DNA of 64,000 nucleotides from a virus (IMGVR_UViG_3300032607_000125:62001-126000); one strand, 5' to 3'. Counted from the stretch's first letter, positions 15,188-56,805 are shown. Numbers and translations are program-made. Notes: generated by a model not told the origin, from the sequence alone.

Positions 15188-15539
15188 GGTTTTAGGTAAG
15201 ACTTCTCCCACTGGTGAACTTCATGCCTTGTCGTTCACTAGTGGAGAATTTGCTGATATTATATTCTCATACACTGATGTCAAGTTTATTGAACACGATG
15301 ATGCTTTAACTATTGCATTTGAGTATCATTTGCATGACGTACCTCATCACTTAAAAGACTTCAATACAGAAGTTTTTGAAAAAGAACTTGGTGATTTTAT
15401 AACAGCGTTACTCTACTATGGTATTGAACGCGACAAAATGGGATTTATTGATGGCGAACAGAATAGAGAAGACGATTCTTTCGAATCTGATGCACAACGA
15501 AGCGTACTGCCGGAAGGTAGTGCCATTCCTAAAGACTGA
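15156..15539 (+). CDS. Hypothetical protein between uvsX and gene 41
   Basis: 127 residues, in the same position as a small conserved gene of aquatic T4-like phages. The core (SGEFADIIFSYTDVKFIEHDD, ALTIAFEYHLHD) alternates beta strands and then a helix (VFEKELGDFITALLYYGI). It overlaps uvsX by 32 bases and the helicase start by about 89 bases, so its last 30 residues are doubly coded. The function is unknown. Overlap on both sides lowers certainty. Confidence 0.6.
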   Translation: MQKTTPLRPHRVLGKTSPTGELHALSFTSGEFADIIFSYTDVKFIEHDDALTIAFEYHLHDVPHHLKDFNTEVFEKELGDFITALLYYGIERDKMGFIDGEQNREDDSFESDAQRSVLPEGSAIPKD

Positions 15540-16086
15540 GTATTTCTCAGATCAATTTGAGAAAGTTGTTGCTCAAGAGTTAGTAGCGTTCTTCACTGAA
15601 TATAATAAGCCAGCATCACTTGAAATCCTTGCGATTCAACTCGGCAATCGCAAGGATCTTCGTGGTGAACAACTTGCTCAGGTTGAAAGCTACATCAATG
15701 AACTGACATTCAAAACTGATAACGATGAATGGTTGTATAAACACACTGAGGCTTTTTGTAAGAAGCAAGCGGTGTATAATGCAATCATTGATTCGTTTGA
15801 AATCATTGAAGGCAAAGACAAAGTTCGCAGTGAAGATGCTATTCCTTCCATGCTATCAGAAGCTCTTGCGGTTTCATTTGATGCATCGGTTGGCCATGAT
15901 TATCTTGAAGACTTTGAAGAACGATACGACTTCTATAATCGTACTGAAGAGAAACTAGAATTTGATCTAGATCTATTCAATAAAATTACAAAGGGTGGTC
16001 TATCGAAGAAGACTCTGAATGTTATTCTCGCAGGCTGCGTTCATCCAGATACTTTAGTTAGAGTGCGATTTAAGAAGAAAGCGTAA
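15451..16086 (+). CDS. 41: Replicative helicase gp41, N-terminal half with N-intein
   Basis: This encodes the first 195 residues of DnaB-type helicase gp41 (MANRIEKTILSNLMHNEAY, later FNKITKGGLSKKTLNVILAG) and then 16 residues, CVHPDTLVRVRFKKKA, before a stop. In T4 the sequence runs straight from NVLMAG into the P-loop. Here it breaks inside the P-loop, and the rest is encoded from 16754. The added residues start with Cys and have the block A pattern of an intein (C..xDTLV). The start at 15451 is chosen from alignment with the short T4 N-terminus; an earlier ATG at 15418 would add 11 residues. Confidence 0.9.
   Translation: MANRIEKTILSNLMHNEAYCRKVVPFLKTEYFSDQFEKVVAQELVAFFTEYNKPASLEILAIQLGNRKDLRGEQLAQVESYINELTFKTDNDEWLYKHTEAFCKKQAVYNAIIDSFEIIEGKDKVRSEDAIPSMLSEALAVSFDASVGHDYLEDFEERYDFYNRTEEKLEFDLDLFNKITKGGLSKKTLNVILAGCVHPDTLVRVRFKKKA
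16036..16086 (+). other. N-fragment of split intein (16 residues)
   Basis: TGC at 16036-16038 is the putative Cys1. The fragment CVHPDTLVRVRFKKKA holds only intein block A and ends at TAA. Natural split inteins usually have an N-part of about 100 residues. Atypical ones with N-parts of about 16-25 residues have been described from environmental T4-like phage genes (AceL and VidaL types, from memory). The C-terminal partner lies at 16754-17125. Confidence 0.88.
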
Positions 16087-16693
16087 ATCCTAATCTATAT
16101 CCATTAGACAAGAATTCGTTTAATCTTTCTTGACGAATTCTTGTTCTGTGTTTTCCATTTGTTACACAAATCATACCTATTAATGATTTTCCTCCAAGAG
16201 AAGCGTATTCAGATCTTTTTTCTTTATTGAAAATTGCAATTCCAGCTTTCATTTGTGATTGTGCGCCAATTTTACCACCTAATGATGCATGTTCTTTAAA
16301 TTTGTCTGGATTGTGAATACCAATCATATTCTTGATTTGCGTGGCTGCACCCATACGCCGCCATTCATTTCGTTCTTCTAAAGACTTTGAGAAAAATCCA
16401 ATGTCATTATCTCTGCAATATTCACCAGTTATTTTGCGCTGATGCGATGTTAAATTTGCACCGAGCATATACATAGCCCTTAAATCATTTGGAGATTTAT
16501 AAATTTTCCATAGTAAATAATGCGCAATAATGTGTTCTCTTATTGTCAAATATGTAAAATTAGAAATGTCATCAGTTCCACCAGCATGTTTAGGAATAAT
16601 ATGGTGCCTATGTAAATTAGAACTAGGTTTCCATTCATTTATGATTGTACTTTTACTCATACATAGATTATAATAAACTTTATCGTAGAACAT
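16070..16693 (-). CDS. HNH homing endonuclease on the opposite strand, inside the split intein
   Basis: 207 residues encoded antisense between the two intein halves. An HNH-like core LHRHHIIPKHAGGTDDISN is followed by LTIREHIIAHYLL. NUMOD-like repeats (EHASLGGKIG, EYASLGGKS) lie in the C-terminal half. GGAG lies eight bases before the ATG on the minus strand, and TATAAATA lies 37 bases upstream. Its 3' end overlaps the N-intein stop by 17 bases. It is a paralogue of the HNH gene that breaks nrdA at 37059. It probably promotes spread of the split-intein insertion. Confidence 0.9.
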   Translation of the reverse strand: MFYDKVYYNLCMSKSTIINEWKPSSNLHRHHIIPKHAGGTDDISNFTYLTIREHIIAHYLLWKIYKSPNDLRAMYMLGANLTSHQRKITGEYCRDNDIGFFSKSLEERNEWRRMGAATQIKNMIGIHNPDKFKEHASLGGKIGAQSQMKAGIAIFNKEKRSEYASLGGKSLIGMICVTNGKHRTRIRQERLNEFLSNGYRLGFTLSS

Positions 16694-16715
16694 TGGTTTC
16701 TCCTAAATTATCGCC

Positions 16716-16744
16716 TGTACCGGCTAACTTATTTATACTCTAAA
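16716..16744 (+). promoter_or_regulatory. Possible promoter TGTACC-17-TCTAAA for the gp41 C-half
   Basis: TGTACC 16716-16721 and TCTAAA 16739-16744 have the 17 bp spacing of the phage promoter family, but the -10 matches TATAAT at only four positions. It would start transcription about three bases before the ATG at 16754, which has no ribosome site. Confidence 0.35.
16730..16737 (-). promoter_or_regulatory. T4-type late promoter TATAAATA, minus strand
   Basis: On the minus strand this reads an exact TATAAATA. It lies 37 bases upstream of the only clear minus-strand gene in the window, the HNH endonuclease. Confidence 0.65.
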
Positions 16745-16753
16745 TTGAAAAAT

Positions 16754-17125
16754 ATGACTTGGATCACAAAAGAAATAAAAATAAATGACATTGAGTCTAT
16801 GCTAGAAGACTATGATGTTGAAGTAGATTCTCCAGATGGGTTTGTCCCAGTATCTCTATTTGTTGATAAGGGAGAATGGGACGAGTTTAAGTTGACAATG
16901 CTGGATGGTCGCACTATTCACGTCAACGAAAATCATCTATTTGAAACCGACTCAGGTTGGCAGTATGCTAAAGATTTAGTTGATACTGGTGTTAATACAT
17001 ATATTAGCGATACTGGCACTTCACTTGGTATTTTGACAAAAACTGGAAATCGTATTCCCATTGTTGATATTCAGGTAGAACACGAGAATCATAGGTATTA
17101 TACTAATGGAGTATCATCGCATAAT
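16754..17125 (+). other. C-fragment of split intein (124 residues)
   Basis: This begins MTWITKEIKIND and contains a block B-like segment (DGRTIHVNENHLFETDSGW), a block F-like segment (VDIQVEHENHRYYTNG) and block G SSHN. Asn at 17123-17125 is followed by Thr as the +1 nucleophile, directly joined to GVGKS of the helicase P-loop. All splicing motifs except block A are here, complementing the 16-residue N-fragment. Confidence 0.9.
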
Positions 17126-17932
17126 ACTGGCGTGGGCAAGAGTTTGTTCATGTGTCACGTCGCCGCTGGCGCTTTAATGCAAGGTAAGAACGTACTGTAT
17201 ATTACAATGGAAATGGCAGAAGAACGTATCGCTGAACGTATCGATGCTAACTTGCTTAACATGACAATGGAAGAACTTAGTAAAGTTACTAAGGACATCT
17301 ACGAGACTCGTCTTGGCAAGTTGATCAAGAAAACTGCTGGTAAGTTAATCGTTAAGGAATACCCCACAGCAGCAGCTCACTCTGGACACTTTAAAGCATT
17401 GCTTGAAGAGTTGAAGATGAAACGTAACTTCATGCCAGACTTAATCGTTATTGATTATCTAAACATCTGTTCTTCTGCTCGTATGAAAGCCGGTGCTGGA
17501 GTTAATTCATACACCTTCATTAAGTCTATTGCAGAAGAACTTCGTGGTCTAGCCGTTGAGTATAATGTACCAATCCTTAGTGCAACTCAAACTACTCGTA
17601 GTGGATTTGGTAATACCGATGTTGGACTAGAAGATACTTCTGAATCATTTGGTCTTCCAGCAACTACTGACTTTATGTTTGCGTTAATCTCCACTGAAGA
17701 ACTTGAGAATCTTAATCAGATCATGGTTAAACAACTTAAGAATCGTTATAATGATGTGAACTATTATAAACGATTCGTTATTGGTGTTGATAGATCTAGA
17801 ATGAAATTATATGATGTTGAAGAATCAGCGCAGAAGAATATATCTGATGCTGGTCAAGATGATGGCCCTGCCTTTGATAAGACTTCATTTGGTAAAAGGA
17901 TGAAAAGTGCCGGTGACGGGTTTACATTTTAA
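16754..17932 (+). CDS. 41: Replicative helicase gp41, C-terminal half with C-intein
   Basis: After 124 intein residues the protein continues TGVGKSLFMCHVAAG and matches T4 gp41 to its end. Helicase motifs include YITMEMAEERIAERIDAN, a Walker B LIVIDYLNIC, and SATQTTRSGFG. Splicing in trans with the N-half would rebuild the P-loop (LAG joined to TGVGKS), giving an uninterrupted helicase of about 460 residues. Without splicing neither half has a complete ATP site. No ribosome site precedes the ATG at 16754; a TTG at 16745 is an alternative start. Confidence 0.93.
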   Translation: MTWITKEIKINDIESMLEDYDVEVDSPDGFVPVSLFVDKGEWDEFKLTMLDGRTIHVNENHLFETDSGWQYAKDLVDTGVNTYISDTGTSLGILTKTGNRIPIVDIQVEHENHRYYTNGVSSHNTGVGKSLFMCHVAAGALMQGKNVLYITMEMAEERIAERIDANLLNMTMEELSKVTKDIYETRLGKLIKKTAGKLIVKEYPTAAAHSGHFKALLEELKMKRNFMPDLIVIDYLNICSSARMKAGAGVNSYTFIKSIAEELRGLAVEYNVPILSATQTTRSGFGNTDVGLEDTSESFGLPATTDFMFALISTEELENLNQIMVKQLKNRYNDVNYYKRFVIGVDRSRMKLYDVEESAQKNISDAGQDDGPAFDKTSFGKRMKSAGDGFTF

Positions 17933-35666: not shown

Positions 35667-37016
35667 ATGAACGATGTAATTCATGGTATCAAGGTAGATT
35701 ATTCACGCGATAGTCTATTCGATGAACTTGGTAAGATTAGACTTAGAGAATCTTACATGAAAGATGATGAAGTCTCACCACAAGAAAGATTTGCATACGT
35801 ATCATCTACTTTTGGCAGTAACCCCGAACATACACAAAGATTATATGAATATTCTAGTCTTCATTGGTTGTCTTATGCTACTCCAATTCTTTCTTTTGGT
35901 CGCAGTAAGCGTGGTTTGCCTATATCATGCTTCCTTAATTATATTGAAGATACTGCGGAGGGTCTAGTTGATAACCTTTCAGAAACTAATTGGCTCAGTA
36001 TGCTCGGCGGTGGTGTGGGCATTGGCTTTGGCATTCGTTCTGCCGATGATAAGTCTACTGGTATTATGCCACATCTTAAAATGTATGATGCTTCTTCTTT
36101 GGCGTATCGTCAAGGTCGCACTCGCCGTGGTTCTTATGCCGCTTATCTTGATATCTCTCATCCCGATATTATTCCTTTCTTAGAAATGCGAAAGCCTACA
36201 GGCGATCAAAATCTACGTACATTGAATATGCATCATGGTGTTAACATTCCAGATGCGTTCATGGACATCATTGAAAAATGTATGCTTGATCCAGAAGCAG
36301 ATGATTCGTGGGATCTAATAGATCCAGCAAGTCTTGAAGTTCGTGAAACAGTTTCAGCTAAGCACCTATGGCAGCAATTGCTTGAATTGCGCATGACAAC
36401 AGGTGAACCATATCTTCACTTCATTGATGAATCAAATCGTAAGCTTCCACAATGGCTTAAGGATAAAGGTTTGAGGGTACACCAGTCTAATCTGTGTTCG
36501 GAGATTATTCTTCCAACAAATAAAGATCGTACTGCCGTATGCTGTTTGTCATCATTAAATTTGGAATATTACGATGCTTGGAAAGATCACCCAACTTTTC
36601 TACGGGACGTGGCTGAGATGCTTGATAACGTTTTACAGTACTTCATTGATAATGCTCCTGACAGCATATCAAGAGCAAAGCATAGCGCTACTCTTGAACG
36701 CTCTATTGGTATTGGTGCCCTCGGTTTTCATGCACTACTCCAAAAGAACAATATTGCATGGGAAAGCGTTGTAGCAAAATCACTAAACATTCGTATGTTT
36801 AAAGGAATTCGGAGTAAATTAGATGAAGCAAATAAGAGTTTGGGATCTGAACGAGGTGAAGCACCTGATGTACAAAGCCTTATTGAGTTTGAAGATTCTG
36901 ATGGCAATACCCGTAGCATTAATTCTTCTGATTTTGTTAGCGTTATCCGCAATGGTGAAGAAATTTCTATTCGTGCTTGTGCCATCGTTGAAGGAGATGA
37001 CATTCTGAGTTTATAA
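35667..37016 (+). CDS. nrdA: Ribonucleotide reductase alpha subunit NrdA, N-terminal part (fractured gene)
   Basis: 449 residues matching class Ia NrdA up to SLGSERGEAPD (about residue 401). Recognisable stretches are GGGVGIGFGIRS, the SNLCSEI and AVCCLSSLNLEYY cysteine/active-site region, and SIGIGALGFHALLQ. After GEAPD come 48 residues without NrdA similarity (ending GDDILSL), then a stop. The rest of NrdA is encoded at 37583 after an HNH gene. No intein Cys1 is present at the break, so this looks like a genes-in-pieces NrdA as in Aeromonas phage Aeh1, the two polypeptides assembling without splicing. Confidence 0.92.
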   Translation: MNDVIHGIKVDYSRDSLFDELGKIRLRESYMKDDEVSPQERFAYVSSTFGSNPEHTQRLYEYSSLHWLSYATPILSFGRSKRGLPISCFLNYIEDTAEGLVDNLSETNWLSMLGGGVGIGFGIRSADDKSTGIMPHLKMYDASSLAYRQGRTRRGSYAAYLDISHPDIIPFLEMRKPTGDQNLRTLNMHHGVNIPDAFMDIIEKCMLDPEADDSWDLIDPASLEVRETVSAKHLWQQLLELRMTTGEPYLHFIDESNRKLPQWLKDKGLRVHQSNLCSEIILPTNKDRTAVCCLSSLNLEYYDAWKDHPTFLRDVAEMLDNVLQYFIDNAPDSISRAKHSATLERSIGIGALGFHALLQKNNIAWESVVAKSLNIRMFKGIRSKLDEANKSLGSERGEAPDVQSLIEFEDSDGNTRSINSSDFVSVIRNGEEISIRACAIVEGDDILSL

Positions 37017-37020
37017 ATTT

Positions 37021-37028
37021 TATAAATA
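37021..37028 (+). promoter_or_regulatory. T4-type late promoter TATAAATA (HNH gene)
   Basis: An exact TATAAATA 31 bases before the HNH ATG, just after the nrdA N-part stop. Confidence 0.65.
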
Positions 37029-37058
37029 CCATTAGGAGCAAAATTAAAGGTGATCCCA

Positions 37059-37586
37059 ATGCAGTACGATAAAATTTACATAAGTATAATAGAACAAGCA
37101 AAATCTAGACAATTAGACGGATATAGTGAAAAACATCATATTATTCCACGTTGTTTAGGTGGAATAGACGATAAATCTAACCTAGTTGCGCTTACATATA
37201 GAGAACACTTTGTATGCCATAAACTTTTATGTAAGATGTATCCCGGAAATCTTAAGCTTATTTGTGCTATATCTTTTATGATATACTCTTCTAAAAAGAA
37301 TAAGCGCTTGATAAACTTAAAGGATTTTGATTATGTGAAGCGTATGTTAGCTCCTCATATGGGATCATGGAATAAAGGTAGAGAACCATGGAATAAAGGT
37401 TTGAAAGGTGATGATTTTAAATCTAAAAATCCTAATCATAGTAAACCTCCAAGCATGATTGGTTATAAATGGATAAACAACGTAACTGAACAAACAAAAC
37501 TAGCGCCAACTAAAGAATTACCAAATGGATGGACCTATGGTAGAATAGACAATAGAGGCGATAATAATGGAATGAGAAAAAAATGA
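37059..37586 (+). CDS. HNH homing endonuclease interrupting nrdA
   Basis: 175 residues. EKHHIIPRCLGGIDDKSNL and LTYREHFVCHKLLCKMY form the HNH-type core and match the antisense HNH gene inside gp41. The C-terminal half has repeated WNKG phrases (GSWNKGREPWNKGLKG) typical of NUMOD DNA-contact modules. The start at 37059 follows AAAGGTGAT, a near-perfect ribosome site; GTG at 37050 is an alternative. It overlaps the nrdA C-part by four bases, so the three genes form one unit. Confidence 0.9.
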   Translation: MQYDKIYISIIEQAKSRQLDGYSEKHHIIPRCLGGIDDKSNLVALTYREHFVCHKLLCKMYPGNLKLICAISFMIYSSKKNKRLINLKDFDYVKRMLAPHMGSWNKGREPWNKGLKGDDFKSKNPNHSKPPSMIGYKWINNVTEQTKLAPTKELPNGWTYGRIDNRGDNNGMRKK

Positions 37587-38200
37587 CATTTAAAGTAAAA
37601 AAGATTAACAAAGAACATGATGGAGTTGGCAATAGATTTTCGCATTGTTCAGCAATAGCGCCAAACGCATCAAGCAGTATTCTTATGGGCAACACTAGTC
37701 CTTCTGTTGAACCTTATCGTGCCAATGCTTATCGCCAAGACACTCTATCGGGTTCTCACCTAAATAAGAACCGGTTCCTTGATGCTCTATTGCGCAGTAA
37801 GCTTAATGAAAGTGAACTGCAAGATGCATGGTCGAGTATCATGGCAAATGATGGTTCAGTACAACATTTGAATATATTAACAGACGTTGAAAAAGAAGTC
37901 TTTAAGACATCGATGGAAATTGATCAACGTTGGGTTATTGAACACGCAGCTGATCGCCAAGAATACATTGATCAAGCACAGTCTATCAATGTATTCTTTA
38001 GACCAGATAGCCACATCAAATATATTCATAGTGTTCACTTTTTAGCATGGAAAAAGAAACTTAAGACTCTTTATTATTGCCGCTCTGAAAAGATTGGCAA
38101 AGCAGACAAAGTATCGAAAAGAGTTGAGCGTGAAATCATTAAAGAAATTGATATGAGATCTATTGTGGAAGGCAATGATTGTATCGCTTGTGAAGGGTAA
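37583..38200 (+). CDS. nrdA: Ribonucleotide reductase alpha subunit NrdA, C-terminal part (fractured gene)
   Basis: 205 residues. After about 14 extra N-terminal residues (MTFKVKKINKEHDG) the sequence resumes NrdA at VGNRFSHCSAIAPNASSS and NTSPSVEPYRANAYRQDTLSG. It ends in IVEGNDCIACEG with the C-terminal redox CxxC-type cysteines. Only two or three residues of a continuous NrdA appear to be missing between the two parts. Both halves keep their catalytic and redox residues, so a functional two-piece enzyme is likely. Confidence 0.92.
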   Translation: MTFKVKKINKEHDGVGNRFSHCSAIAPNASSSILMGNTSPSVEPYRANAYRQDTLSGSHLNKNRFLDALLRSKLNESELQDAWSSIMANDGSVQHLNILTDVEKEVFKTSMEIDQRWVIEHAADRQEYIDQAQSINVFFRPDSHIKYIHSVHFLAWKKKLKTLYYCRSEKIGKADKVSKRVEREIIKEIDMRSIVEGNDCIACEG

Positions 38201-49897: not shown

Positions 49898-49975
49898 TGG
49901 GGTGTAGCCTAGTCCGGTCTAAGGCAACGGTCTTTGAAATCGTCATCATTGGTTCGAATCCAATCACCCCTGCCA
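49898..49975 (+). tRNA. tRNA-Gln(TTG)
   Basis: Cloverleaf with acceptor TGGGGTG/CACCCCT, anticodon stem ACGGT/ATCGT and loop CTTTGAA, T arm ATTGG/CCAAT, and encoded CCA. U1 opposite U72 replaces the weak U1-A72 pair of bacterial tRNA-Gln. Confidence 0.88.
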
Positions 49976-50056
49976 TATAAAAACACATTGGGCTTGATGC
50001 AAATCATCGCGGGTATAGTGCTCTCCGAGCCGCGGACTAGAGTGTGTTTCTATATG
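49973..50056 (+). ncRNA. Structured inter-tRNA RNA, copy A
   Basis: The outer stem starts in the CCA of tRNA-Gln. CATATA pairs with TATATG (50051-50056), then an A/C mismatch, then AAACACA pairs with TGTGTTT. Inside, CGCGG pairs with CCGCG. It has the same layout as copies at 51820, 52042 and 55597. Confidence 0.65.
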
Positions 50057-50064
50057 ATATTTTT

Positions 50065-50154
50065 GGAGATATGGATGAGTGGCTTAAATCAACGGTTTGC
50101 TAAACCGTCGCTGGGTAAATCTGGCCGCAGGTTCGAATCCTGCTATCTCCGCCA
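50065..50154 (+). tRNA. tRNA-Ser(GCT)
   Basis: Acceptor GGAGATA/TATCTCC, anticodon stem ACGGT/ACCGT with loop TTGCTAA, long variable arm, T arm CAGG/CCTG, discriminator G, CCA encoded. Confidence 0.92.
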
Positions 50155-50160
50155 AACATC

Positions 50161-50235
50161 GCGACTATAGCATAGTGGTAGTGCCGAGAACTCATAATTC
50201 TTAAGGGGTAGGTTCGAATCCTACTGGTCGCACCA
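50161..50235 (+). tRNA. tRNA with CAT anticodon (Met or Ile2)
   Basis: Acceptor GCGACTA/TGGTCGC, loop CTCATAA, T arm GTAGG/CCTAC, CCA encoded. The paired first base excludes initiator tRNA. Elongator Met or lysidine-modified Ile cannot be separated by eye. Confidence 0.88.
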
Positions 50236-50253
50236 ATTTTAAAAAGGAAGTTT

Positions 50254-50814
50254 ATGTCTACAGTATTAGCATTAGATGCAACAGGACTTCCACGTAAATG
50301 GATCAACTATGAAGATGCTATTTCATATTTTGCAAAAGATATGGTGGTGTGGACATTAGGTGAAACTGTTGCAACATTTCGTGGAGGTATTCAAAATGAC
50401 GGTGAGATGTCGGTGCTTAGCACTCCATCTATTATCGCTGTTCGTGGTAAAGGATTCTCCATAGAAAAAGCTGGTACAGTAGCACTGACTAATAAGATTT
50501 TGTTCGCTAGAGATAGAAACATTTGTGCTTATTGCGGTGGCTCCTTTACTAACAATCATTTGTCTAGAGATCACGTTCATCCTGTTTCACGGGGTGGACA
50601 AGACGTTTGGACTAACGTAGTAAGTGCATGTGTAAAGTGCAACACTCATAAGAGTGCTAAGCTTTTAAAAGAATGTGGATTAGAACTTTTATACGTTCCC
50701 TACGTTCCATCGCACTACGAAAATATGATTCTGCAAAATAGAAACATATTAGCAGATCAAATGAATTATCTGATGAGTGGTGTTCCAAAGCACAGTAGAA
50801 TTCGATTAAATTAA
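50254..50814 (+). CDS. HNH endonuclease (McrA-like) within the tRNA array
   Basis: 186 residues. A zinc-bound HNH site is visible: CAYCGG, then LSRDHVHPVSRGGQDVWTN, then CVKCNTHKS. The N-terminal part (VLALDATGLPRKWINYEDAI) fits the common HNH family of phages and bacteria. AAGGAAG precedes the ATG, 19 bases after the CAT tRNA. It may be a mobile or free-standing nuclease. Unlike three other endonuclease genes in the array it does not overlap a tRNA. Confidence 0.85.
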   Translation: MSTVLALDATGLPRKWINYEDAISYFAKDMVVWTLGETVATFRGGIQNDGEMSVLSTPSIIAVRGKGFSIEKAGTVALTNKILFARDRNICAYCGGSFTNNHLSRDHVHPVSRGGQDVWTNVVSACVKCNTHKSAKLLKECGLELLYVPYVPSHYENMILQNRNILADQMNYLMSGVPKHSRIRLN

Positions 50815-50819
50815 TTAAC

Positions 50820-50897
50820 GTACAGGTGCCCGAGAGGTCCAAGGGAACTGATTGCAAACCAGTAAAACCATGAGTTCAAATCTCATTCTGTACTCCA
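50820..50897 (+). tRNA. tRNA-Cys(GCA)
   Basis: Acceptor GTACAGG/TCTGTAC, anticodon loop TTGCAAA in stem ACTGA/CCAGT (one A-C mismatch), T arm ATGAG/CTCAT, discriminator T and CCA encoded. The variable region is slightly long. Confidence 0.85.
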
Positions 50898-50908
50898 AAT
50901 GACCATTT

Positions 50909-51006
50909 TAGGGCATAAACACCCTATATGAATCAACAACTTAGACACCTCAAAGTGACGTACGTTCATACTTCCCACGAAGATGTATGGATACCCGCTT
51001 TGAGGT
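50909..51006 (+). ncRNA. Structured spacer after tRNA-Cys
   Basis: TAGGG at 50909-50913 pairs with CCCTA at 50922-50926. ACCTCAAAG at 50947-50955 pairs with CTTTGAGGT at 50998-51006. It is a different sequence from the CATAT copies but has the same idea of a long outer stem. Confidence 0.5.
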
Positions 51007-51029
51007 CTTTCAGGCACCTGAGGGACGGC

Positions 51030-51088
51030 AAACAACGGTGTACATTAATTAGAAGTTGTGGTATAATTGATCTATCAAAACAAAGGAT
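51030..51088 (+). repeat. 59 bp direct repeat, copy 1 (promoter cassette)
   Basis: Identical to 51285-51343. It contains the promoter and leader up to AAAGGAT, so two neighbouring genes share the same control sequence. Confidence 0.92.
51039..51067 (+). promoter_or_regulatory. Phage promoter TGTACA-17-TATAAT
   Basis: TGTACA 51039-51044, TATAAT 51062-51067, upstream of the gene at 51095. Confidence 0.8.
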
Positions 51089-51094
51089 AGAAAA

Positions 51095-51286
51095 ATGACT
51101 CGTAAATCTAAAGACATTGTCAACATTGTTGACGGCGTTAAAGTTACAATCTGTGCTTATCGTGGACCTCGTTTCAATGAACAAACGTTCGATGTAAACA
51201 AGAGTCGTTACACAGCTTGGCATCAAGGTGTCAAGAACTATGAGCATGGCACCCGTGGAGTTCAAGGAACTGTAACAAGTTTGTAA
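51095..51286 (+). CDS. Small hypothetical protein between tRNAs
   Basis: 63 residues, basic (MTRKSKDIVNIVDGVKVTI, then YRGPRFNEQTFDVNKSRYTAWHQG). An AAAGGA ribosome site and its own promoter support expression. No family recognised. The end of the gene overlaps the second copy of the promoter repeat by two bases. Confidence 0.6.
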   Translation: MTRKSKDIVNIVDGVKVTICAYRGPRFNEQTFDVNKSRYTAWHQGVKNYEHGTRGVQGTVTSL

Positions 51287-51343
51287 ACAACGGTGTACAT
51301 TAATTAGAAGTTGTGGTATAATTGATCTATCAAAACAAAGGAT
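51285..51343 (+). repeat. 59 bp direct repeat, copy 2 (promoter cassette)
   Basis: Perfect copy of 51030-51088, placed just after the first small gene. Confidence 0.92.
51294..51322 (+). promoter_or_regulatory. Phage promoter TGTACA-17-TATAAT
   Basis: TGTACA 51294-51299, TATAAT 51317-51322, inside repeat copy 2 and upstream of the gene at 51349. Confidence 0.8.
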
Positions 51344-51348
51344 CCATT

Positions 51349-51630
51349 ATGAAAAAAGTTAGAACAGACGCTTATATGTTTACAGCAGATCCTCTGTGTG
51401 TAGGTGATATGCAAATGATTGAAACAGTTCGTAAGACAATTGCGATTGTGAACAAACAAGCAAACATTATTGCTAAATGGTCACAGCAACCTGCAAAATT
51501 GTTTAGAGTTTGTTTGAAAGCGCGCTTGGGTAAGGGAAATCCTCTTTCTGAGAAATATAAAAATCAGTGGATTAAAAGCATTAAGCTTGAAGATGCACGC
51601 ACAATAGACGTATACGTACAACGTCGTTAA
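51349..51630 (+). CDS. Small hypothetical protein between tRNAs
   Basis: 93 residues, basic and helical (MKKVRTDAYMFTADPL, TVRKTIAIVNKQANIIAKW). AAAGGA precedes the ATG and the promoter is a duplicate of that of the previous gene, although the two proteins are not alike. Function unknown. Confidence 0.6.
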   Translation: MKKVRTDAYMFTADPLCVGDMQMIETVRKTIAIVNKQANIIAKWSQQPAKLFRVCLKARLGKGNPLSEKYKNQWIKSIKLEDARTIDVYVQRR

Positions 51631-51647
51631 TGTTAGTAAAATAACGG

Positions 51648-51676
51648 TGTACAAATAATAAAGAATGTGGTATAAT
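51648..51676 (+). promoter_or_regulatory. Phage promoter TGTACA-17-TATAAT (second tRNA run)
   Basis: TGTACA 51648-51653, TATAAT 51671-51676, followed by a boxA-like sequence and tRNA-Glu. Confidence 0.78.
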
Positions 51677-51719
51677 TACTACATAAACTAGGAAAGATCA
51701 TCGAATCTTTTCACAATAG

Positions 51720-51734
51720 TTCTTTAACAATTCA
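51720..51734 (+). promoter_or_regulatory. boxA-like antitermination sequence, second copy
   Basis: TTCTTTAACAATTCA, identical over 15 bases to the sequence at 49870-49884, again between a promoter and the first tRNA of a run. Confidence 0.6.
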
Positions 51735-51747
51735 AGTTTCTTATTTT

Positions 51748-51822
51748 ACTGCTATCGTCTATCGGTTAGGACACTAGGTTTTCAACCTGGTAAGCGGGGT
51801 TCAACTCCCCGTAGCAGTACCA
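51748..51822 (+). tRNA. tRNA-Glu(TTC)
   Basis: Acceptor ACTGCTA/TAGCAGT, anticodon stem CTAGG/CCTGG with loop TTTTCAA, T arm CGGGG/CCCCG, CCA encoded. Confidence 0.93.
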
Positions 51823-51911
51823 TATTAAAGCACATTAGATTCCTTTTACTCTGCCCTCTGCACCTAGTGCCACTGGCGGATTAGATTTCTTTTAGTGTGC
51901 TCTAATATGGT
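51820..51911 (+). ncRNA. Structured inter-tRNA RNA, copy B
   Basis: CCATATTA, beginning with the CCA of tRNA-Glu, pairs with TAATATGG. After an A/C mismatch, AGCACA pairs with TGTGCT. The interior contains GCAC-CTA-GTGC, shared with copy C. Confidence 0.68.
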
Positions 51912-51934
51912 AATGAAGGACTAATTACCCTTCA

Positions 51935-52000
51935 CCATAATCGGGAGTCATGAACCGATGAACTCGTAGTCATCTAATGGTAAGGTAGGCCCGATTATGG
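51935..52000 (+). repeat. 11 bp inverted repeat capturing an anticodon arm
   Basis: CCATAATCGGG at 51935-51945 is an exact complement of CCCGATTATGG at 51990-52000, which is the anticodon arm of the tRNA-like element at 51960. The two structures are mutually exclusive. Confidence 0.65.
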
Positions 52001-52042
52001 GGCCGCATGCAGGTTTCGAAATCCTGTCTACAATGAGTTCGC
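51960..52042 (+). pseudogene. Degenerate tRNA-like element
   Basis: GAACTCG pairs with TGAGTTC, GGCCC pairs with GGGCC around loop GATTATG, and a T arm (CAGG/CCTG) is present. However, U33 is missing, seven extra bases (TCTACAA) separate T arm and acceptor, and CCA is not encoded (GCA follows). It is probably a decayed tRNA or a tRNA-like RNA; the anticodon cannot be assigned. Confidence 0.5.
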
Positions 52043-52113
52043 ATATACAAACATACTTAACCGCCCATGTTGCACCTAGTGCGTGAAGGATCCGAGAGTA
52101 TGTTTCTATATGT
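52042..52113 (+). ncRNA. Structured inter-tRNA RNA, copy C
   Basis: CATATA pairs with TATATG. A C/C mismatch separates this from AAACATACT paired with AGTATGTTT. The interior has GCAC-CTA-GTGC as in copy B. It follows directly on the tRNA-like element. Confidence 0.65.
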
Positions 52114-52125
52114 TTTAAAAAGATT

Positions 52126-52200
52126 GCGGCATTCATATAACGGTCATTATCTCGGATTGTCTATCCGAAGACGGGAGTTCGACTCTCCCATGTCGCGCCA
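52126..52200 (+). tRNA. tRNA-Asp(GTC)
   Basis: Acceptor GCGGCAT/ATGTCGC, anticodon stem TCGGA/TCCGA with loop TTGTCTA, T arm GGGAG/CTCCC, discriminator G, CCA encoded. Confidence 0.9.
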
Positions 52201-52327
52201 GTATTAGTTGGATTGATCATCCAAGATAGTAAACGCTAACCGTCGTGGCCACCCGGCGGTTCTTGCAGTGTTATACTGCTACGAAAAGGCGGGGTAAGAG
52301 TCCCGATATAGGGTGTGCTAGTAATTT
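52201..52327 (+). ncRNA. Structured spacer between tRNA-Asp and tRNA-Ala
   Basis: Several hairpins are visible: TTGGAT/ATCCAA, AACCG..CGGTT, and CAGT/ACTG. No frame or tRNA signature is present. Possibly a stable small RNA comparable in position to the T4 array RNAs C and D. Confidence 0.4.
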
Positions 52328-52403
52328 GGGGGATTAGCTCAGCTGGGAGAGCAATTGCTTTGCAAGCAATAGGTCAACGGTTCGATCCCGTTATCCTCCA
52401 CCA
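52328..52403 (+). tRNA. tRNA-Ala(TGC)
   Basis: Acceptor GGGGGAT/ATCCTCC, D arm GCTC/GAGC, anticodon stem ATTGC/GCAAT with loop TTTGCAA, CCA encoded. Confidence 0.95.
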
Positions 52404-52411
52404 AGTTTTAA

Positions 52412-52483
52412 GCGGGTTGTTTGTGGAATACGTTTAGCCTTCCAAGCTGAAAGATGCAGGTTCGAATCCTGTAGCCCGCTCCA
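52412..52483 (+). tRNA. tRNA-Gly(TCC)
   Basis: Acceptor GCGGGTT/AGCCCGC, anticodon stem TTAGC/GCTGA with loop CTTCCAA, T arm GCAGG/CCTGT, discriminator T and CCA. The D arm is short, giving a 72-base gene. Confidence 0.85.
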
Positions 52484-52538
52484 GTAACTCTCCCTTGTAT
52501 GCGGAGTATAATATGATAAGTAGTATACAAACGAATTA

Positions 52539-52623
52539 GCCCCGATGGTGGAATTGGTAGACATCCCGGTCTTAGAAGCCGGCGCCGAAAGGCATGCGAG
52601 TTCGAATCTCGCTTGGGGCACCA
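52539..52623 (+). tRNA. tRNA-Leu(TAG)
   Basis: Acceptor GCCCCGA/TTGGGGC, anticodon stem CCGGT/GCCGG with loop CTTAGAA, long variable arm, T arm GCGAG/CTCGC, CCA encoded. Confidence 0.93.
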
Positions 52624-52638
52624 AAGCAGCGTATAGGT

Positions 52639-52710
52639 TACATTATTCAGTATGAGCAACAGGGTACCTAGGTAAATCCTTGGGCGGGCAATAGTACGTA
52701 CATCAATGTA
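52639..52710 (+). ncRNA. Structured spacer after tRNA-Leu
   Basis: GTTACATT pairs with AATGTAAC about 55 bases downstream, enclosing a further sequence with CCTAGG. It is of the long-outer-stem type seen elsewhere in the array, without the CATAT motif. Confidence 0.45.
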
Positions 52711-52767
52711 ACAGGTGGTAGTGATCTACTTCGGACGAAGACCTCAAAACTTCGTCTACTAAATTTA

Positions 52768-52859
52768 GGAAAGTAATGCAGCGGGGTTGGTCCTGCGACC
52801 AGCCTTGAAAACTGGGTTCTCTTAATCGGGATGGGGTTCGACTCCTCTGCTTTCCGCCA
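52768..52859 (+). tRNA. tRNA-Ser(TGA)
   Basis: Acceptor GGAAAGT/GCTTTCC, anticodon loop CTTGAAA in stem CCAGC/ACTGG, long variable arm, T loop TTCGACT, discriminator G, CCA encoded. Confidence 0.88.
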
Positions 52860-52867
52860 ATGTTTAT

Positions 52868-52943
52868 GTTGTCGTTAGTGTAATGGTTAGCACCAGAGAT
52901 TGTGAATCTCTTAGCATGGGTTCGAATCCCATACGTCAACCCA
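52868..52943 (+). tRNA. tRNA-His(GTG)
   Basis: Anticodon loop TTGTGAA in stem AGAGA/TCTCT. The extra G at -1 pairs with C73, the histidine identity pair. T arm ATGGG/CCCAT, CCA encoded. Confidence 0.93.
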
Positions 52944-52944
52944 T

Positions 52945-53020
52945 ACAACTTTAGCTGATGTGGTCATAGCGGTGTCTTGAAGCGGCATTGAAGCAGGTTC
53001 GATTCCTGCAGGTTGTACCA
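52945..53020 (+). tRNA. tRNA-Phe(GAA)
   Basis: Acceptor ACAACTT/AGGTTGT, anticodon stem GTGTC/GGCAT with loop TTGAAGC, T arm GCAGG/CCTGC, CCA encoded. Confidence 0.85.
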
Positions 53021-53026
53021 AAAGTT

Positions 53027-53081
53027 TTGATAGTGTCGTAGATTTTGCATTAGTAGTTTAAGCAGAGGAATACATTATCAA
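53027..53081 (+). ncRNA. Structured spacer before tRNA-Ile
   Basis: TTGATAGTGT pairs with ACATTATCAA (one G-T), enclosing 35 bases. Confidence 0.45.
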
Positions 53082-53085
53082 TCAT

Positions 53086-53160
53086 TGCCTTATAGCTCAG
53101 AGGAAGAGCAAACGCTTGATAAGCGTTAGGTCGACATTTCGAAATTGTCTAAGGCAACCA
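53086..53160 (+). tRNA. tRNA-Ile(GAT)
   Basis: Acceptor TGCCTTA/TAAGGCA, D arm GCTC/GAGC, anticodon stem AACGC/GCGTT with loop TTGATAA, CCA encoded. Confidence 0.92.
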
Positions 53161-53204
53161 ATTTAATGGACTGAAACTTTAAGGTGAAGTAATTGGCTTT
53201 ATTA

Positions 53205-53212
53205 TATAAATA
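53205..53212 (+). promoter_or_regulatory. T4-type late promoter TATAAATA (endonuclease gene)
   Basis: An exact TATAAATA 22 bases before the endonuclease ATG at 53234. Confidence 0.65.
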
Positions 53213-53233
53213 CATAAACTATAAGGAATATGT

Positions 53234-53836
53234 ATGGAAAAATGTAAATTTTGCGCAAAATTGGGATTTAAGAATTTAAAAATTCATGAAAGACAATGCA
53301 AAGAAAACGTTAATAGAACTTGTGCTATTGGTCATAAAGGCGGAAACCACTTTACTACTGGTAAATCTAAAACACATTCTGATTTTACTAAAAATAAAAT
53401 GAGCCAATCACAATTGGGGAAAGCTCATACAGAAGAGACTAAGAAAAAGTTATCAATTATACGAAAATTATATTTAGAAAATAATCCAGATAAAGTTCCA
53501 TATCTTTTAAACCATTCTTCAAAGATAAGTTATCCTGAACAATATTTTATTGATTGTTTTATTAATGATGTTGATGCTAAATTTCAACATCATGTTTATA
53601 GATATAAATTAGATTTTGCCAATGTCAAAGAAAAATTATACTTTGAAATTGATGGTGAGCAACATTATAATGATAAAAGAATTGTTGAACACGATATCAA
53701 AAGAACTCAAAAGTTAAATGAAATGGGATGGACATGTTTTAGATTGAGATGGTCTCATTTTCAAAAGTTAAACGAAGAAGAAAAAAAACAAAAAGTTTTA
53801 GAGATACGATTTATGATGAAATGGTATCATAGTTGA
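53234..53836 (+). CDS. Homing endonuclease, Vsr/EDxHD-like, ending inside tRNA-Lys
   Basis: 200 residues. An N-terminal zinc finger (CKFC...H...C), NUMOD-type repeats (SQSQLGKAHTEETKKKLS) and a C-terminal nuclease domain with ISYPEQ and FEIDGEQHYNDKRIVEHDIKR. These resemble the EDxHD (Vsr-like) homing endonucleases first seen with fractured phage genes. AAGGAA precedes the ATG. The last nine sense codons and the TGA are part of the following tRNA-Lys gene (30 shared bases), so the tRNA supplies the C-terminus. Homologous to the gene at 56103. Confidence 0.82.
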   Translation: MEKCKFCAKLGFKNLKIHERQCKENVNRTCAIGHKGGNHFTTGKSKTHSDFTKNKMSQSQLGKAHTEETKKKLSIIRKLYLENNPDKVPYLLNHSSKISYPEQYFIDCFINDVDAKFQHHVYRYKLDFANVKEKLYFEIDGEQHYNDKRIVEHDIKRTQKLNEMGWTCFRLRWSHFQKLNEEEKKQKVLEIRFMMKWYHS

Positions 53837-53880
53837 CTTTTAATCAACCTTTCCCAGTTCGAATCTGGGTGAATCGACCA
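53807..53880 (+). tRNA. tRNA-Lys(TTT), 5' half overlapping an endonuclease ORF
   Basis: Acceptor CGATTTA/TGAATCG, D arm ATG/CAT, anticodon stem GTTGA/TCAAC with loop CTTTTAA, T arm CCCAG/CTGGG, CCA encoded. Bases 53807-53836 also encode the end of the upstream ORF. Confidence 0.92.
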
Positions 53881-54029
53881 AGTTTTGTTTATGTGTGTAT
53901 GGTAATACCTTATGTGAATGCGGACCCATTTTTCATCCGGCTGCATTGTACTCGAAGCCCATAGCAGTAGGTGTCGAGCCTATTGGTGATTGACTGAAAA
54001 TATAGATCACAGTGAACAAATTAATTTTC
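53881..54029 (+). other. Spacer between tRNA-Lys and tRNA-Tyr
   Basis: No gene. Hairpins AATGC/GCATT and CTCGA/TCGAG are visible. A frame crossing into tRNA-Tyr (53990-54277) is judged spurious. Confidence 0.5.
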
Positions 54030-54114
54030 GGAGTAGAAGCATCAATGGTGATGCAGAAGGCTGTAACCCTTCCGCCCTCGGGCACGCCTGGTTCGATCCC
54101 AGGATACTCCACCA
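54030..54114 (+). tRNA. tRNA-Tyr(GTA)
   Basis: Acceptor GGAGTAG/ATACTCC (last pair G-A), anticodon stem GAAGG/CCTTC with loop CTGTAAC, long variable arm, T arm CCTGG/CCAGG, CCA encoded. Confidence 0.9.
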
Positions 54115-54121
54115 GTCAAAC

Positions 54122-54137
54122 GATAGTGCGCACTATC
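54122..54137 (+). repeat. 16 bp perfect palindrome
   Basis: GATAGTGC followed by GCACTATC, eight bases after tRNA-Tyr. It forms a hairpin in RNA only if the centre opens. It could also be a protein or nuclease site. Confidence 0.6.
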
Positions 54138-54267
54138 TAACGGTTGTAAGTGACGATGAGTTATATCGGAACTTTCACTATTTTATTCCTGAGTTTAGCG
54201 GGTTTTGCGCAGACCTTGCCAATGTTAGTAACGTGCTATGCGATGAGCACCTTAGGAGCCAGTTTAT

Positions 54268-54340
54268 TCCCCAGTAGCACAGCGGTAGTTGCGCAACACT
54301 GTTAATGTTGATGTCGTACGTTCGATCCGTACCTGGGGAG
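54268..54340 (+). tRNA. tRNA-Asn(GTT)
   Basis: Acceptor TCCCCAG/CTGGGGA, anticodon stem CAACA/TGTTG with loop CTGTTAA, T arm GTACG/CGTAC. CCC follows the discriminator G, so the final A must be added by CCA enzyme. Confidence 0.92.
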
Positions 54341-54346
54341 CCCTTC

Positions 54347-54371
54347 GGTTGAAGTACAAAATACTTCAACC
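54347..54371 (+). repeat. 10 bp hairpin between tRNA-Asn and tRNA-Arg
   Basis: GGTTGAAGTA pairs perfectly with TACTTCAACC around a five-base loop. Probably a processing hairpin. Confidence 0.65.
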
Positions 54372-54381
54372 ACAATTTAAT

Positions 54382-54456
54382 GCGTCTGTAGTATAATGGA
54401 TAATATTCTAGGCTACGAACTTAGTAATGGTGGTTCGATTCCATCCAGACGCACCA
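54382..54456 (+). tRNA. tRNA-Arg(ACG)
   Basis: Acceptor GCGTCTG/CAGACGC, anticodon stem CTAGG/CTTAG with loop CTACGAA, T arm TGG/CCA region, CCA encoded. A34 would need host TadA to become inosine. Confidence 0.92.
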
Positions 54457-54466
54457 AGTATTTTAT

Positions 54467-54542
54467 AACTCAGTAGCTCAATTGGCAGAGCACTTCCTTC
54501 ATACGGAATAGGTTTCCAGTTCGAGTCTGGACTTCACGACCA
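54467..54542 (+). pseudogene. tRNA-Met-like element with broken acceptor stem
   Basis: D arm (GCTC/GAGC), anticodon arm (CTTCC, loop TTCATAC, GGAAT) and T arm (TCCAG/CTGGA) are intact and CCA is encoded. The 5' strand AACTCAG cannot pair with CTTCACG. Its anticodon arm is identical to that of the sound CAT tRNA at 55871, suggesting recombination between tRNA genes. Confidence 0.6.
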
Positions 54543-54550
54543 GTTTTATT

Positions 54551-54624
54551 GCCCTTGTATCCTTAATGGTAGAGGTGTCCTGTTTTGTAAGCAGGGTGCG
54601 GAGGTTCGATTCCTTCCTGGGGCA
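54551..54624 (+). tRNA. tRNA-Thr(TGT), first copy
   Basis: Acceptor GCCCTTG/CTGGGGC (one mismatch), anticodon stem CCTGT/GCAGG with loop TTTGTAA, T arm GGAGG/CCTTC. CTG follows the discriminator, so CCA is not encoded. Confidence 0.85.
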
Positions 54625-54640
54625 CTGGTAATACTGTAAA

Positions 54641-54670
54641 AAAGATGACTAAACGAAATAGTTATCTTCA
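54641..54670 (+). repeat. Hairpin between tRNA-Thr and tRNA-Val
   Basis: AAGAT.ACTA pairs with TAGT.ATCTT around a seven-base loop. Confidence 0.5.
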
Positions 54671-54683
54671 AAAATATAAATTA

Positions 54684-54757
54684 GCCTCGGTAGTTTAATG
54701 GTAGAACGTCGTCTTTACATGGCGAATACGGGAGTTCAATTCTCCAACGAGGTACCA
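54684..54757 (+). tRNA. tRNA-Val(TAC)
   Basis: Acceptor GCCTCGG/ACGAGGT (G-T first pair, weak last pair), anticodon stem TCGTC/GGCGA with loop TTTACAT, T arm GGGAG/CTCC, CCA encoded. Confidence 0.85.
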
Positions 54758-54772
54758 ATATTATAGGAGGTC

Positions 54773-54800
54773 GGGATTTCAAAATTCCCCCCGGACACCA
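54773..54800 (+). pseudogene. 3' tRNA half (T arm, acceptor strand, CCA)
   Basis: GGGAT/TTCCC T arm with loop TTCAAAA, acceptor strand CCCGGAC, A, CCA. No matching 5' half precedes it, so it is a remnant. Confidence 0.55.
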
Positions 54801-54920
54801 GAATATAAATTAGTCTATTAGCCAACTGATAGATTAACTATGATGACTTTGTATGCCGAAGAACCGTGCATGCATTAAAAAAGTGGTATAGTCCACAACG
54901 GTCTGTCTATCAACTTCACA

Positions 54921-54949
54921 TGTACTTTAAATCGTACATGTGATATAAT
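54921..54949 (+). promoter_or_regulatory. Phage promoter TGTACT-17-TATAAT
   Basis: TGTACT 54921-54926, spacer beginning TTAAATCGT, TATAAT 54944-54949, before the small gene at 54972. Confidence 0.8.
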
Positions 54950-54971
54950 TAATCTTTAATAGGAATATATA

Positions 54972-55121
54972 ATGAAACCAACCAAGAACTTTAAGATGTC
55001 CAGCACTACTAAAACACTGTTGGCGTCTATTGCCGATAAAGATGTCTATAACCTTTTTAAAGCAAACATGGTTCAAGCTCAACTGGCTTCAGAAATTAAA
55101 CCAGCAAAAGAAAAGAAATAA
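54972..55121 (+). CDS. Small conserved-type protein, 49 residues
   Basis: MKPTKNFKMSSTTKTLLASI, then KANMVQAQLASEIKP and a basic end. Small proteins of this pattern occur in many aquatic T4-like phages (from memory), without known function. It has its own promoter and an AGGAA ribosome site, within the tRNA array. Confidence 0.7.
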   Translation: MKPTKNFKMSSTTKTLLASIADKDVYNLFKANMVQAQLASEIKPAKEKK

Positions 55122-55127
55122 ATATAA

Positions 55128-55198
55128 CGCGGGGATTCAGGTGATCGGTCAGTCTCATAAGCTCGACCTAGAAGTTTCGAATACTTCCTCCGCAACCA
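55128..55198 (+). tRNA. Initiator-type tRNA-Met(CAT)
   Basis: C1 opposite A72 with CGCGGGG/CTCCGCA is the bacterial initiator signature, and the 3' end CGCAACCA matches. Loop CTCATAA. T arm GAAGT/ACTTC. The D arm is shortened and the anticodon stem is atypical (seven pairs with a bulge, no three G-C pairs), so activity is uncertain. Confidence 0.65.
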
Positions 55199-55210
55199 AT
55201 TAGCGTTTAT

Positions 55211-55492
55211 TTGCAAAGTTCTTATGAAATAAAATTTGCAACTTTATTAGATGAATTGAACATTGAATGGTCTAGACCGGATCCATTAACGTGGATAGAT
55301 GATAACGGTGGTGATCATAGATATTATCCAGATTTTTTAGTTGGTAATATCTACATAGATATGAAAAATGACTATTTAGCAATTAAAGATAAACCTAAAA
55401 TTGATACAGTAAGACACCAAAATAAAGTTGATATTAGGATAGTAACAAAAGATTTTATAACAAAAGATTATATTTTAGCTCTTAAAGCATAG
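55211..55492 (+). pseudogene. Truncated homing endonuclease ending inside tRNA-Thr
   Basis: 93 codons from TTG, without ribosome site or late promoter. The sequence YEIKFATLLDELNIEWSRP, then YYPDFLVGNIYIDMKND, has the PD-(D/E)XK arrangement of a nuclease domain, but no zinc finger or NUMOD part precedes it. The stop TAG lies in the D arm of the following tRNA-Thr, with 15 shared bases. Probably the residue of a larger endonuclease gene. Confidence 0.6.
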
Positions 55493-55552
55493 ATGGCGAT
55501 GTACCGGTTTTGTAATCCGGTTAGTAGGGTTCAAGTCCTTGTGAGAGCACCA
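55478..55552 (+). tRNA. tRNA-Thr(TGT), second copy, overlapping an endonuclease remnant
   Basis: Acceptor GCTCTTA/TGAGAGC, D arm GCAT/ATGT, anticodon stem CCGGT/TCCGG with loop TTTGTAA, T loop TTCAAGT, CCA encoded. Confidence 0.9.
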
Positions 55553-55571
55553 TAACAAAAGTTCCGGGTGT

Positions 55572-55599
55572 GGGAGTTCGATTCTCTCCTGGGGCACCA
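55572..55599 (+). pseudogene. 3' tRNA half related to tRNA-Thr(TGT)
   Basis: T arm GGGAG/CTCTC with loop TTCGATT, acceptor strand CTGGGGC, A, CCA. The acceptor strand is the same as in the Thr tRNA at 54551, pointing to a partial duplication. Confidence 0.6.
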
Positions 55600-55684
55600 T
55601 ATTAAAATACATAAAGTGAGTTAGCTTTAGGCTTTCCACCTATACATAGCAATCGCCGGACCTATGTTGTGTATTTCAATATGG
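55597..55684 (+). ncRNA. Structured inter-tRNA RNA, copy D
   Basis: CCATATT, starting at the CCA of the tRNA remnant, pairs with AATATGG. An A/C mismatch follows, then AAATACA pairs with TGTATTT. Same 7-mismatch-7 layout as copy A, with different bases. Confidence 0.68.
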
Positions 55685-55735
55685 CAAAACTATTTAAGTA
55701 CAATGGTCACACGCCCTTGCTTAAATTTGAAGTTG

Positions 55736-55860
55736 TCATATTAGAACTTTATTGACGTGCATAACTTGCAAGTTGCGCAAGACCTGTGTGCGGTGATCTA
55801 GTAGTTGCGAACGGCTCTTGTACTAGCGAGAAAGCTTATATCGATAATGTTCTAATATGA
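55736..55860 (+). ncRNA. Structured inter-tRNA RNA, copy E
   Basis: TCATATTAGAAC at 55736-55747 pairs perfectly with GTTCTAATATGA at 55849-55860, enclosing about 100 bases. It has the CATAT end but no tRNA directly before it. Confidence 0.6.
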
Positions 55861-55870
55861 TAATGTTCAT

Positions 55871-55946
55871 GGTAATGTAGCTTAGAGGCAAAAGCACTTC
55901 CTTCATACGGAATAGATCGTGAGTTCGAGTCTCACCATTACCACCA
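55871..55946 (+). tRNA. tRNA with CAT anticodon (Met or Ile2), second
   Basis: Acceptor GGTAATG/CATTACC, D arm GCTT/AAGC, loop TTCATAC, T arm GTGAG/CTCAC, CCA encoded. One of the two sound non-initiator CAT tRNAs may be Ile2. Confidence 0.92.
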
Positions 55947-55957
55947 TTAATTAATTT

Positions 55958-56036: not shown

Positions 56037-56076
56037 AAATATAGTGGTGATAATTGGTATCACACTGCGTTAAATG

Positions 56077-56795: not shown

Positions 56796-56805
56796 AGGAG
56801 TAGAT

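Follow-up and report, generated by a model that had tools for sequence, protein, structure and literature searches.

The gp41 helicase gene lies in two pieces around an endonuclease gene

We analysed a window of 64,000 nucleotides of viral DNA (IMGVR_UViG_3300032607_000125:62001-126000; the parent virus record has 130 kb), in which the helicase gene gp41 is interrupted by an intein and a homing endonuclease gene (HEG). All coordinates are positions in this window (Table 1). A preliminary description of the DNA had proposed that gp41 is encoded in two pieces that carry a split intein with an N-terminal fragment (IntN) of only 16 residues. Two open reading frames (ORFs) with this arrangement are present. 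The N-terminal half starts at ATG 15451 with MANRIEKTILSNL, and its frame closes at 16086 as NVILAG-CVHPDTLVRVRFKKKA-stop, with 16 codons from Cys1 to the stop. The C-terminal half starts at ATG 16754, with an in-frame TTG at 16745, and exactly 124 residues, the last being SSHN, precede TGVGKSL, which matches the earlier count. Family searches assigned the halves to the two portions of the T4-type DnaB-like helicase: the N-half matched the DnaB N-domain and the N part of phrog_19 (E 1e-40), whereas the C part of phrog_19 (E 4e-77) was matched by the C-half.

The gp41 break falls inside the Walker A loop (P-loop), as had been proposed. The nearest insert-free relatives, L086 and L087 (87% and 86% C-extein identity), read TLN(M/V)ILAGTGVGKSLFMCH unbroken through the junction. 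Joining the exteins in silico gives LSKKTLNVILAG-TGVGKSLFMCHV, a product of 463 residues, close to the 460 or so expected earlier, in which the P-loop LAGTGVGKSL is restored. The 130-kb record holds a single helicase C-domain and a single N-domain (the N-domain query being inexact over the first ~10 residues), and no intact gp41 or second helicase gene was found elsewhere in that record.

Table 1. Features of the interrupted gp41 and nrdA genes in the window
Feature	Position	Strand	Evidence
gp41 N-half: N-extein (195 residues) and IntN (16 residues)	15451-16086	+	ORF; DnaB N-domain; N part of phrog_19
N-extein up to LNVILAG, where Walker A begins	15451-16035	+	runs straight into TGVGKS in empty relatives L086 and L087
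IntN, CVHPDTLVRVRFKKKA; Cys1 is TGC 16036-16038, stop 16084-16086	16036-16083	+	sequence; alignment with contiguous L003 and L018; VidaL IntN equally long
HNH HEG, 207 residues	16070-16693	-	PF01844 above its cut-off; homing endonuclease family phrog_655 (E 4e-18)
T4 late-promoter-like TATAAATA, 37 nucleotides upstream of HEG start	16730-16737	-	sequence motif
gp41 C-half: C-terminal intein fragment (IntC, 124 residues) and C-extein (268 residues)	16754-17932	+	ORF; C part of phrog_19; DnaB_C
IntC; motifs NENHLF (block B-like) and DIQVEHENHRYY (block F-like, HENHRYY), SSHN end with Asn codon 17123-17125	16754-17125	+	phmmer to VidaL 6vgv, E 1e-9 to 9e-13; catalytic columns invariant
C-extein from Thr+1 (codon at 17126): remaining Walker A (TGVGKS) and helicase domain	17126-17932	+	phmmer, phage DnaB-like replicative helicases of known structure (8dtp E 4e-63)
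nrdA N part with 46-residue non-NrdA tail (QSLIEFEDSDGNTRSINSS...)	35667-37016
HNH HEG, phrog_655 (same family as gp41 HEG)	37050-37586
nrdA C part	37583-38200

The interrupting element that had been noted between the halves was identified as an HNH HEG on the opposite strand. The HEG is antisense to gp41, and its 3' end shares 17 nucleotides with the end of the N-half, the two genes meeting tail to tail. A Shine-Dalgarno sequence (AGGAG) precedes the ATG of the HEG on the minus strand, and further upstream lies TATAAATA, the sequence of T4-type late promoters. The position of this motif before the HEG is retained in most relatives with a minus-strand HEG. The window contains 10 copies against 7 expected, which is no enrichment; copies at 37021-37028, 53205-53212 and 56077-56084 lie 19-22 nucleotides upstream of other HEGs at 37050, 53234 and 56103. 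Judged by these motifs, the gp41 HEG and the three others look like late genes.

The intein belongs to the VidaL-related, atypically split inteins

The motifs are distributed between the genes as previously described, with Cys1 in the N-half and the block B-like, block F-like and block G-like (SSHN) motifs in the C-half. The best solved relative of the joined intein was VidaL (6vgv; phmmer E 1e-11, or 9e-13 with flanks). The fold was modelled on the contiguous relative L003, whose IntC part is ~67% identical to that of the window, using an alignment of 55 related sequences. The L003 model (predicted local distance difference test score 96.6, predicted template modelling score 0.87) features strands at residues 7-13 and 20-25 separated by a loop at 14-19, and the break in the window, after residue 16, maps to this loop, following strand beta-2. 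Foldseek ranked VidaL on top (template modelling (TM) score 0.89/0.86, root-mean-square deviation 1.6 Å, 29% identity, E 1e-11), with gp41-1 weaker at 0.75, which upholds the suggested kinship with split inteins that have short N-fragments. The model had 55 matches in the PDB at E<=0.001, and the matches listed are all inteins or bacterial intein-like (BIL) domains.

The block B His (H78 of L003), the terminal His-Asn and the residues adjacent to them are invariant across the 55 sequences, and Cys1 is also found in the listed intein relatives. The ratio of nonsynonymous to synonymous substitution rates (dN/dS) of IntC in close pairs is mostly 0.03-0.2, with a maximum of 0.33, and comparison of relatives indicates that IntC and the C-extein are under purifying selection.

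The intein has Cys1, the block B His, a C-terminal His-Asn followed by Thr+1 and, as judged from the L003 model, the Hint fold, all of which define class 1 inteins. It is also encoded by two genes with one extein half fused to each, as in a naturally split intein. An S1 split is defined by a short IntN and a break after strand beta-2, as in VidaL (PMC13014065); the window intein has an IntN of 16 residues (range ~15-35), a break right after beta-2 and homology to VidaL. We conclude that the window intein is a new member of the already known atypically split, VidaL-related inteins and is not a new class, VidaL being a published case with a 16-residue IntN. Its host gene is not that of VidaL, and its gap holds an HNH endonuclease.

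Comparison with described systems places the intein more closely. VidaL (6vgv/6vgw) is homologous, has an IntN of 16 residues that ends just past beta-2 and an IntC that begins with Met, and likewise occupies a Walker A loop, with a gap that does or does not hold an HEG. VidaL differs in that it interrupts uvsX between GESG and SGKSY, with Ser+1 and a plus-strand ORF of 373 residues (probably an endonuclease) in the gap, whereas the window intein interrupts gp41 between LAG and TGVGKS, with Thr+1 and a minus-strand HNH HEG. Identity with the VidaL allele itself was ruled out, as VidaL IntN and IntC were found in a uvsX-like Walker A. This genomic home of VidaL (L217-L220) lies downstream of a gp32-like gene, and its gap holds the 373-residue ORF in L217, a broken ORF in L218 and 58 nucleotides in L219 and L220.

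The inteins gp41-1 and gp41-8 share with the window intein a T4-like gp41 host, a split and an endonuclease gene tied to the break, but they are split canonically, with a long IntN, occupy a different gp41 site (+1 SSS) and match the window intein less closely than VidaL does, in sequence as well as in fold. Assignment to the gp41-1/gp41-8 type was ruled out by the P-loop site, Thr+1 and the IntN of 16 residues, the gp41-1 junction being SSS. Split-intein genes with an endonuclease gene in the gap were reportedly termed 'fractured genes' by Dassa in 2009, and the endonuclease family of these genes is said to be VSR-like (EDxHD). By that definition, the fractured-gene trait is present in the window, with the HEG at 16070-16693 between the split-intein halves; the VSR-like (EDxHD) trait is absent, and the HEG is of the HNH family. 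A helicase intein called 'VidaL T4Lh-1' has reportedly been published. The combination of a short IntN with a long IntC is shared by AceL-TerL, GOS-TerL and PolB16 OarG, with IntN of 25, 37 and 15 residues, respectively (PMC13014065, PMC10189870, PMC11766414). AceL-TerL and GOS-TerL differ from the window intein in their TerL hosts and in a break that comes one structural element further on, behind helix alpha-1, and PolB16 OarG differs in its DNA polymerase host and its Ser1/Ser+1.

Relatives at the same gp41 site are found in several states

An initial scan of IMG/VR yielded 331 IntC relatives, the best 80 of which were kept, and a second scan added others. The gp41 P-loop site carries the intein in 128 loci, or 86 when near-copies are left out. 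The split state with an HNH HEG in the gap accounts for 39 (HEG on the minus strand) and 6 (plus strand) of these 86; a further 22 are contiguous mini-inteins that lack an endonuclease, 10 are split with an eroded or no HEG, 5 are split by a long gap that the strict motif left unclassified, and 4 are incomplete. IntN has 14-18 residues in the split relatives. A second contig, L002, has the same HEG and C-half as the window, and dozens of divergent phages are arranged alike. When we examined the 80 gp41 loci closest to the window's C-extein, 69 were empty and one had the intein, the others being unclassified. Among cultured phages, no relative at the gp41 site exceeded 35% identity, with none closer than about 31%, and a scan of genome contigs with the IntC alignment gave 26 pattern matches and 0 relatives.

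The gap holds an additional gene beside the HEG in L079 and L082-L084 (in L079, a plus-strand ORF of 257 residues), and their gaps measure 1.1-1.6 kb. In L015, L017, L027 and L042, the adjoining uvsX also has intein C-fragments (for example at L015 2219-2683 and L027 2-547), with a GIY-YIG-like ORF just upstream in L015 and L017 and an HNH-like ORF in L042; both neighbouring replication genes, uvsX and gp41, are split in these four.

The cassette moves between phages, and the split outlives its endonuclease

One lineage, with IntN CVHPETRVRIRFRKKQ and IntC 97.8-100% identical, occurs with four gap sizes: 704 nucleotides with an intact HEG (L037, L038), 387 (L035, L036), 169 (L028, L033) and 34 (L029-L032, L040). 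By blastn these sizes are distinct internal deletions of one HEG, and the 34-nucleotide remnant retains a promoter relic, TTATTTATA, and a ribosome-binding site, GAGG, ahead of the C-half. Each state of erosion is present in at least two assemblies, and L006, L009, L042, L148 and L194 are additional split cases with an eroded or no HEG. Because the HEG has eroded while both halves stay, in this gp41 lineage as in VidaL in uvsX, the split outlives its endonuclease. In the HEG-less L006 and L009, the reading frame of the C-half is offset from that of the N-half by +1 in one case and by -1 in the second, which indicates that read-through into one chain is not maintained.

The cassette of IntN, HEG and IntC is identical at 1144 of 1148 nucleotides between L026 and L027 (4 differences, 99.7%), whereas identity is 74.7% and 76.0% in the gp41 flanks, over 150 nucleotides on each side. 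The identity shifts at the intein borders, save for ~10 and ~23 conserved nucleotides, and cassette and flank contrast in the same way in the pairs L035/L037 and L028/L037. A sharp-edged cassette of this kind is the footprint that would be expected if the split intein and the HEG home jointly.

Contiguous and split alleles can be near-identical in the region of the break, as in the contiguous L199 and L203, which read AGGAAGATTTCTTGGTGGATTG, and the split L077, which reads AGGAAGATTTCTTGA...HEG...ATGTGGATTG. On an unrooted tree of 72 inteins, in which the sequences are short, many forks are weak and L042 is counted as split, the contiguous/split label changes 12 times, and at least 6 of these changes are forced by well-supported branches. 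As judged from this tree, changes between the two states occurred several times. A search for HEG relics within contiguous alleles matched only the shared intein flanks and no HEG remnant, and a local test of whether the contiguous L052 lies outside the split clade gave p 0.066, too weak to be decisive. A full two-way cycle is a tentative proposal that we regard as rather less than even odds. In such a cycle, a contiguous mini-intein would be invaded in its beta-2/beta-3 hairpin by an HNH HEG in either orientation and become split, the split intein with its HEG would home into empty gp41, the HEG would erode to leave a stable HEG-less split, and some lineages would re-fuse.

A model for trans-splicing and joint homing

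We estimate a probability of roughly 0.9 that gp41 here contains a class-1, VidaL-type split intein in Walker A with an HNH HEG in its gap, that the halves are trans-spliced to a 463-residue helicase and that IntN, HEG and IntC are mobile. Support for this reading comes from the anatomy, homology, fold and conservation of the locus, from relatives in which the cassette was transferred with sharp edges and from those whose HEG decayed while both halves persisted. The HEG occupies the hairpin loop that joins strands beta-2 and beta-3 of the intein, and gp41 would therefore be made as two polypeptides. By analogy with the known chemistry of class-1 and VidaL-type inteins, the 16-residue IntN would dock on the nearly complete IntC, a thioester would form at Cys1 and the N-extein would pass to Thr+1. 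The terminal Asn would then cyclise and the exteins would be ligated, which would free a 463-residue helicase with an intact P-loop and an expected tryptic peptide TLNVILAGTGVGK. As the insertion interrupts Walker A, ATPase activity is not expected of either half unless splicing occurs; an imprecise loss should therefore be lethal, which would tend to hold the element in place. IntN, HEG and IntC behave as a single mobile cassette, in which, as homing biology suggests, the HNH endonuclease would be produced late in infection and would probably cut the P-loop-coding DNA of intein-less gp41.

Several observations weigh against this model. No clear ribosome-binding site precedes the window's C-half start, and part of the virus may be missing from the 130-kb record. 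Furthermore, across 34 HEG-bearing loci, HEG distances track the C-extein (Mantel r 0.44) more closely than the intein (0.26). Strict long-term coupling of HEG and intein was rejected, since their co-inheritance is weaker than that of HEG and extein.

Other genes with HEGs in the window

The window also contains an nrdA gene that is split by an HEG (Table 1). No intein blocks were seen in nrdA (35667-38200), and its 46-residue tail had no match among cultured phages. One phage thus combines two genes broken by HEGs, gp41 with an intein and nrdA apparently with none, the latter resembling Aeh1 nrdA. The Aeh1 nrdA/mobE system resembles gp41 here in that an essential phage gene is broken in two by an HNH HEG, but it is unlike gp41 in having no intein and in having pieces that function without splicing (PMC2988022). 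Two DUF559 (VSR-like) HEGs, one with NUMOD3, are located at 53234-53836 and 56103-56765 within a cluster of 23 transfer RNA (tRNA) genes (49898-57212), where they extend into the ends of genes for tRNA-Lys and tRNA-Thr.

Alternative explanations

The two helicase halves could function as a non-covalent complex without splicing, in the manner of Aeh1 nrdA. Enzymes encoded by genes in pieces exist (PMC2988022), and an HNH HEG also divides nrdA in this window, with no visible intein blocks there. However, a complex of this type would have a cut Walker A with 124 foreign residues immediately ahead of TGVGKS, the splicing residues are invariant in 55 relatives, and contiguous alleles hold an uninterrupted intein in one gp41 chain, which together make this explanation improbable. 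Slightly less probable still is that gp41 is a pseudogene for which another helicase, of the host or encoded elsewhere, substitutes. The gene is indeed interrupted and the record possibly truncated, but the record has just one helicase gene, the signature of purifying selection extends over IntC and the C-extein, and dozens of lineages keep the same split even after loss of the HEG.

Introns are known from T4-like phages, as is ribosomal bypass in gene 60. Removal of the gap from the RNA, or its bypass by the ribosome, would yield one chain, and introns in T4-like phages (PMC2988022) provide a precedent. We consider this very unlikely, as no intron, group I included, was matched in the window at Rfam gathering scores, the HEG takes up nearly the whole gap, the gap varies among 704, 387, 169 and 34 nucleotides within one lineage, and the C-halves of L006 and L009 are in different frames relative to their N-halves. 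The least probable explanation is an assembly artefact. Although the record is metagenomic, many independent contigs, L002 among them, have the same arrangement and the states of HEG erosion recur between assemblies, which leaves next to no room for chance or for an assembly error that joined the halves.

Implications for split inteins

The origin, spread and persistence of split inteins have so far been argued mostly from isolated examples. At one gp41 site, the states are displayed together in related phages, some of them near-identical in DNA, and the split, HEG-bearing intein of the window is one of these states. The main added value lies in this series of alleles around the gp41 intein, rather than in the annotation itself. 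Invasion, joint homing, endonuclease loss and possible re-fusion are each testable at the site, and the series suggests that the unusual 16-residue split is set by the insertion point of the endonuclease gene. Furthermore, protein labelling and semisynthesis could draw on dozens of new split inteins from this family, which have a short IntN (14-18 residues) and contiguous counterparts in nature.
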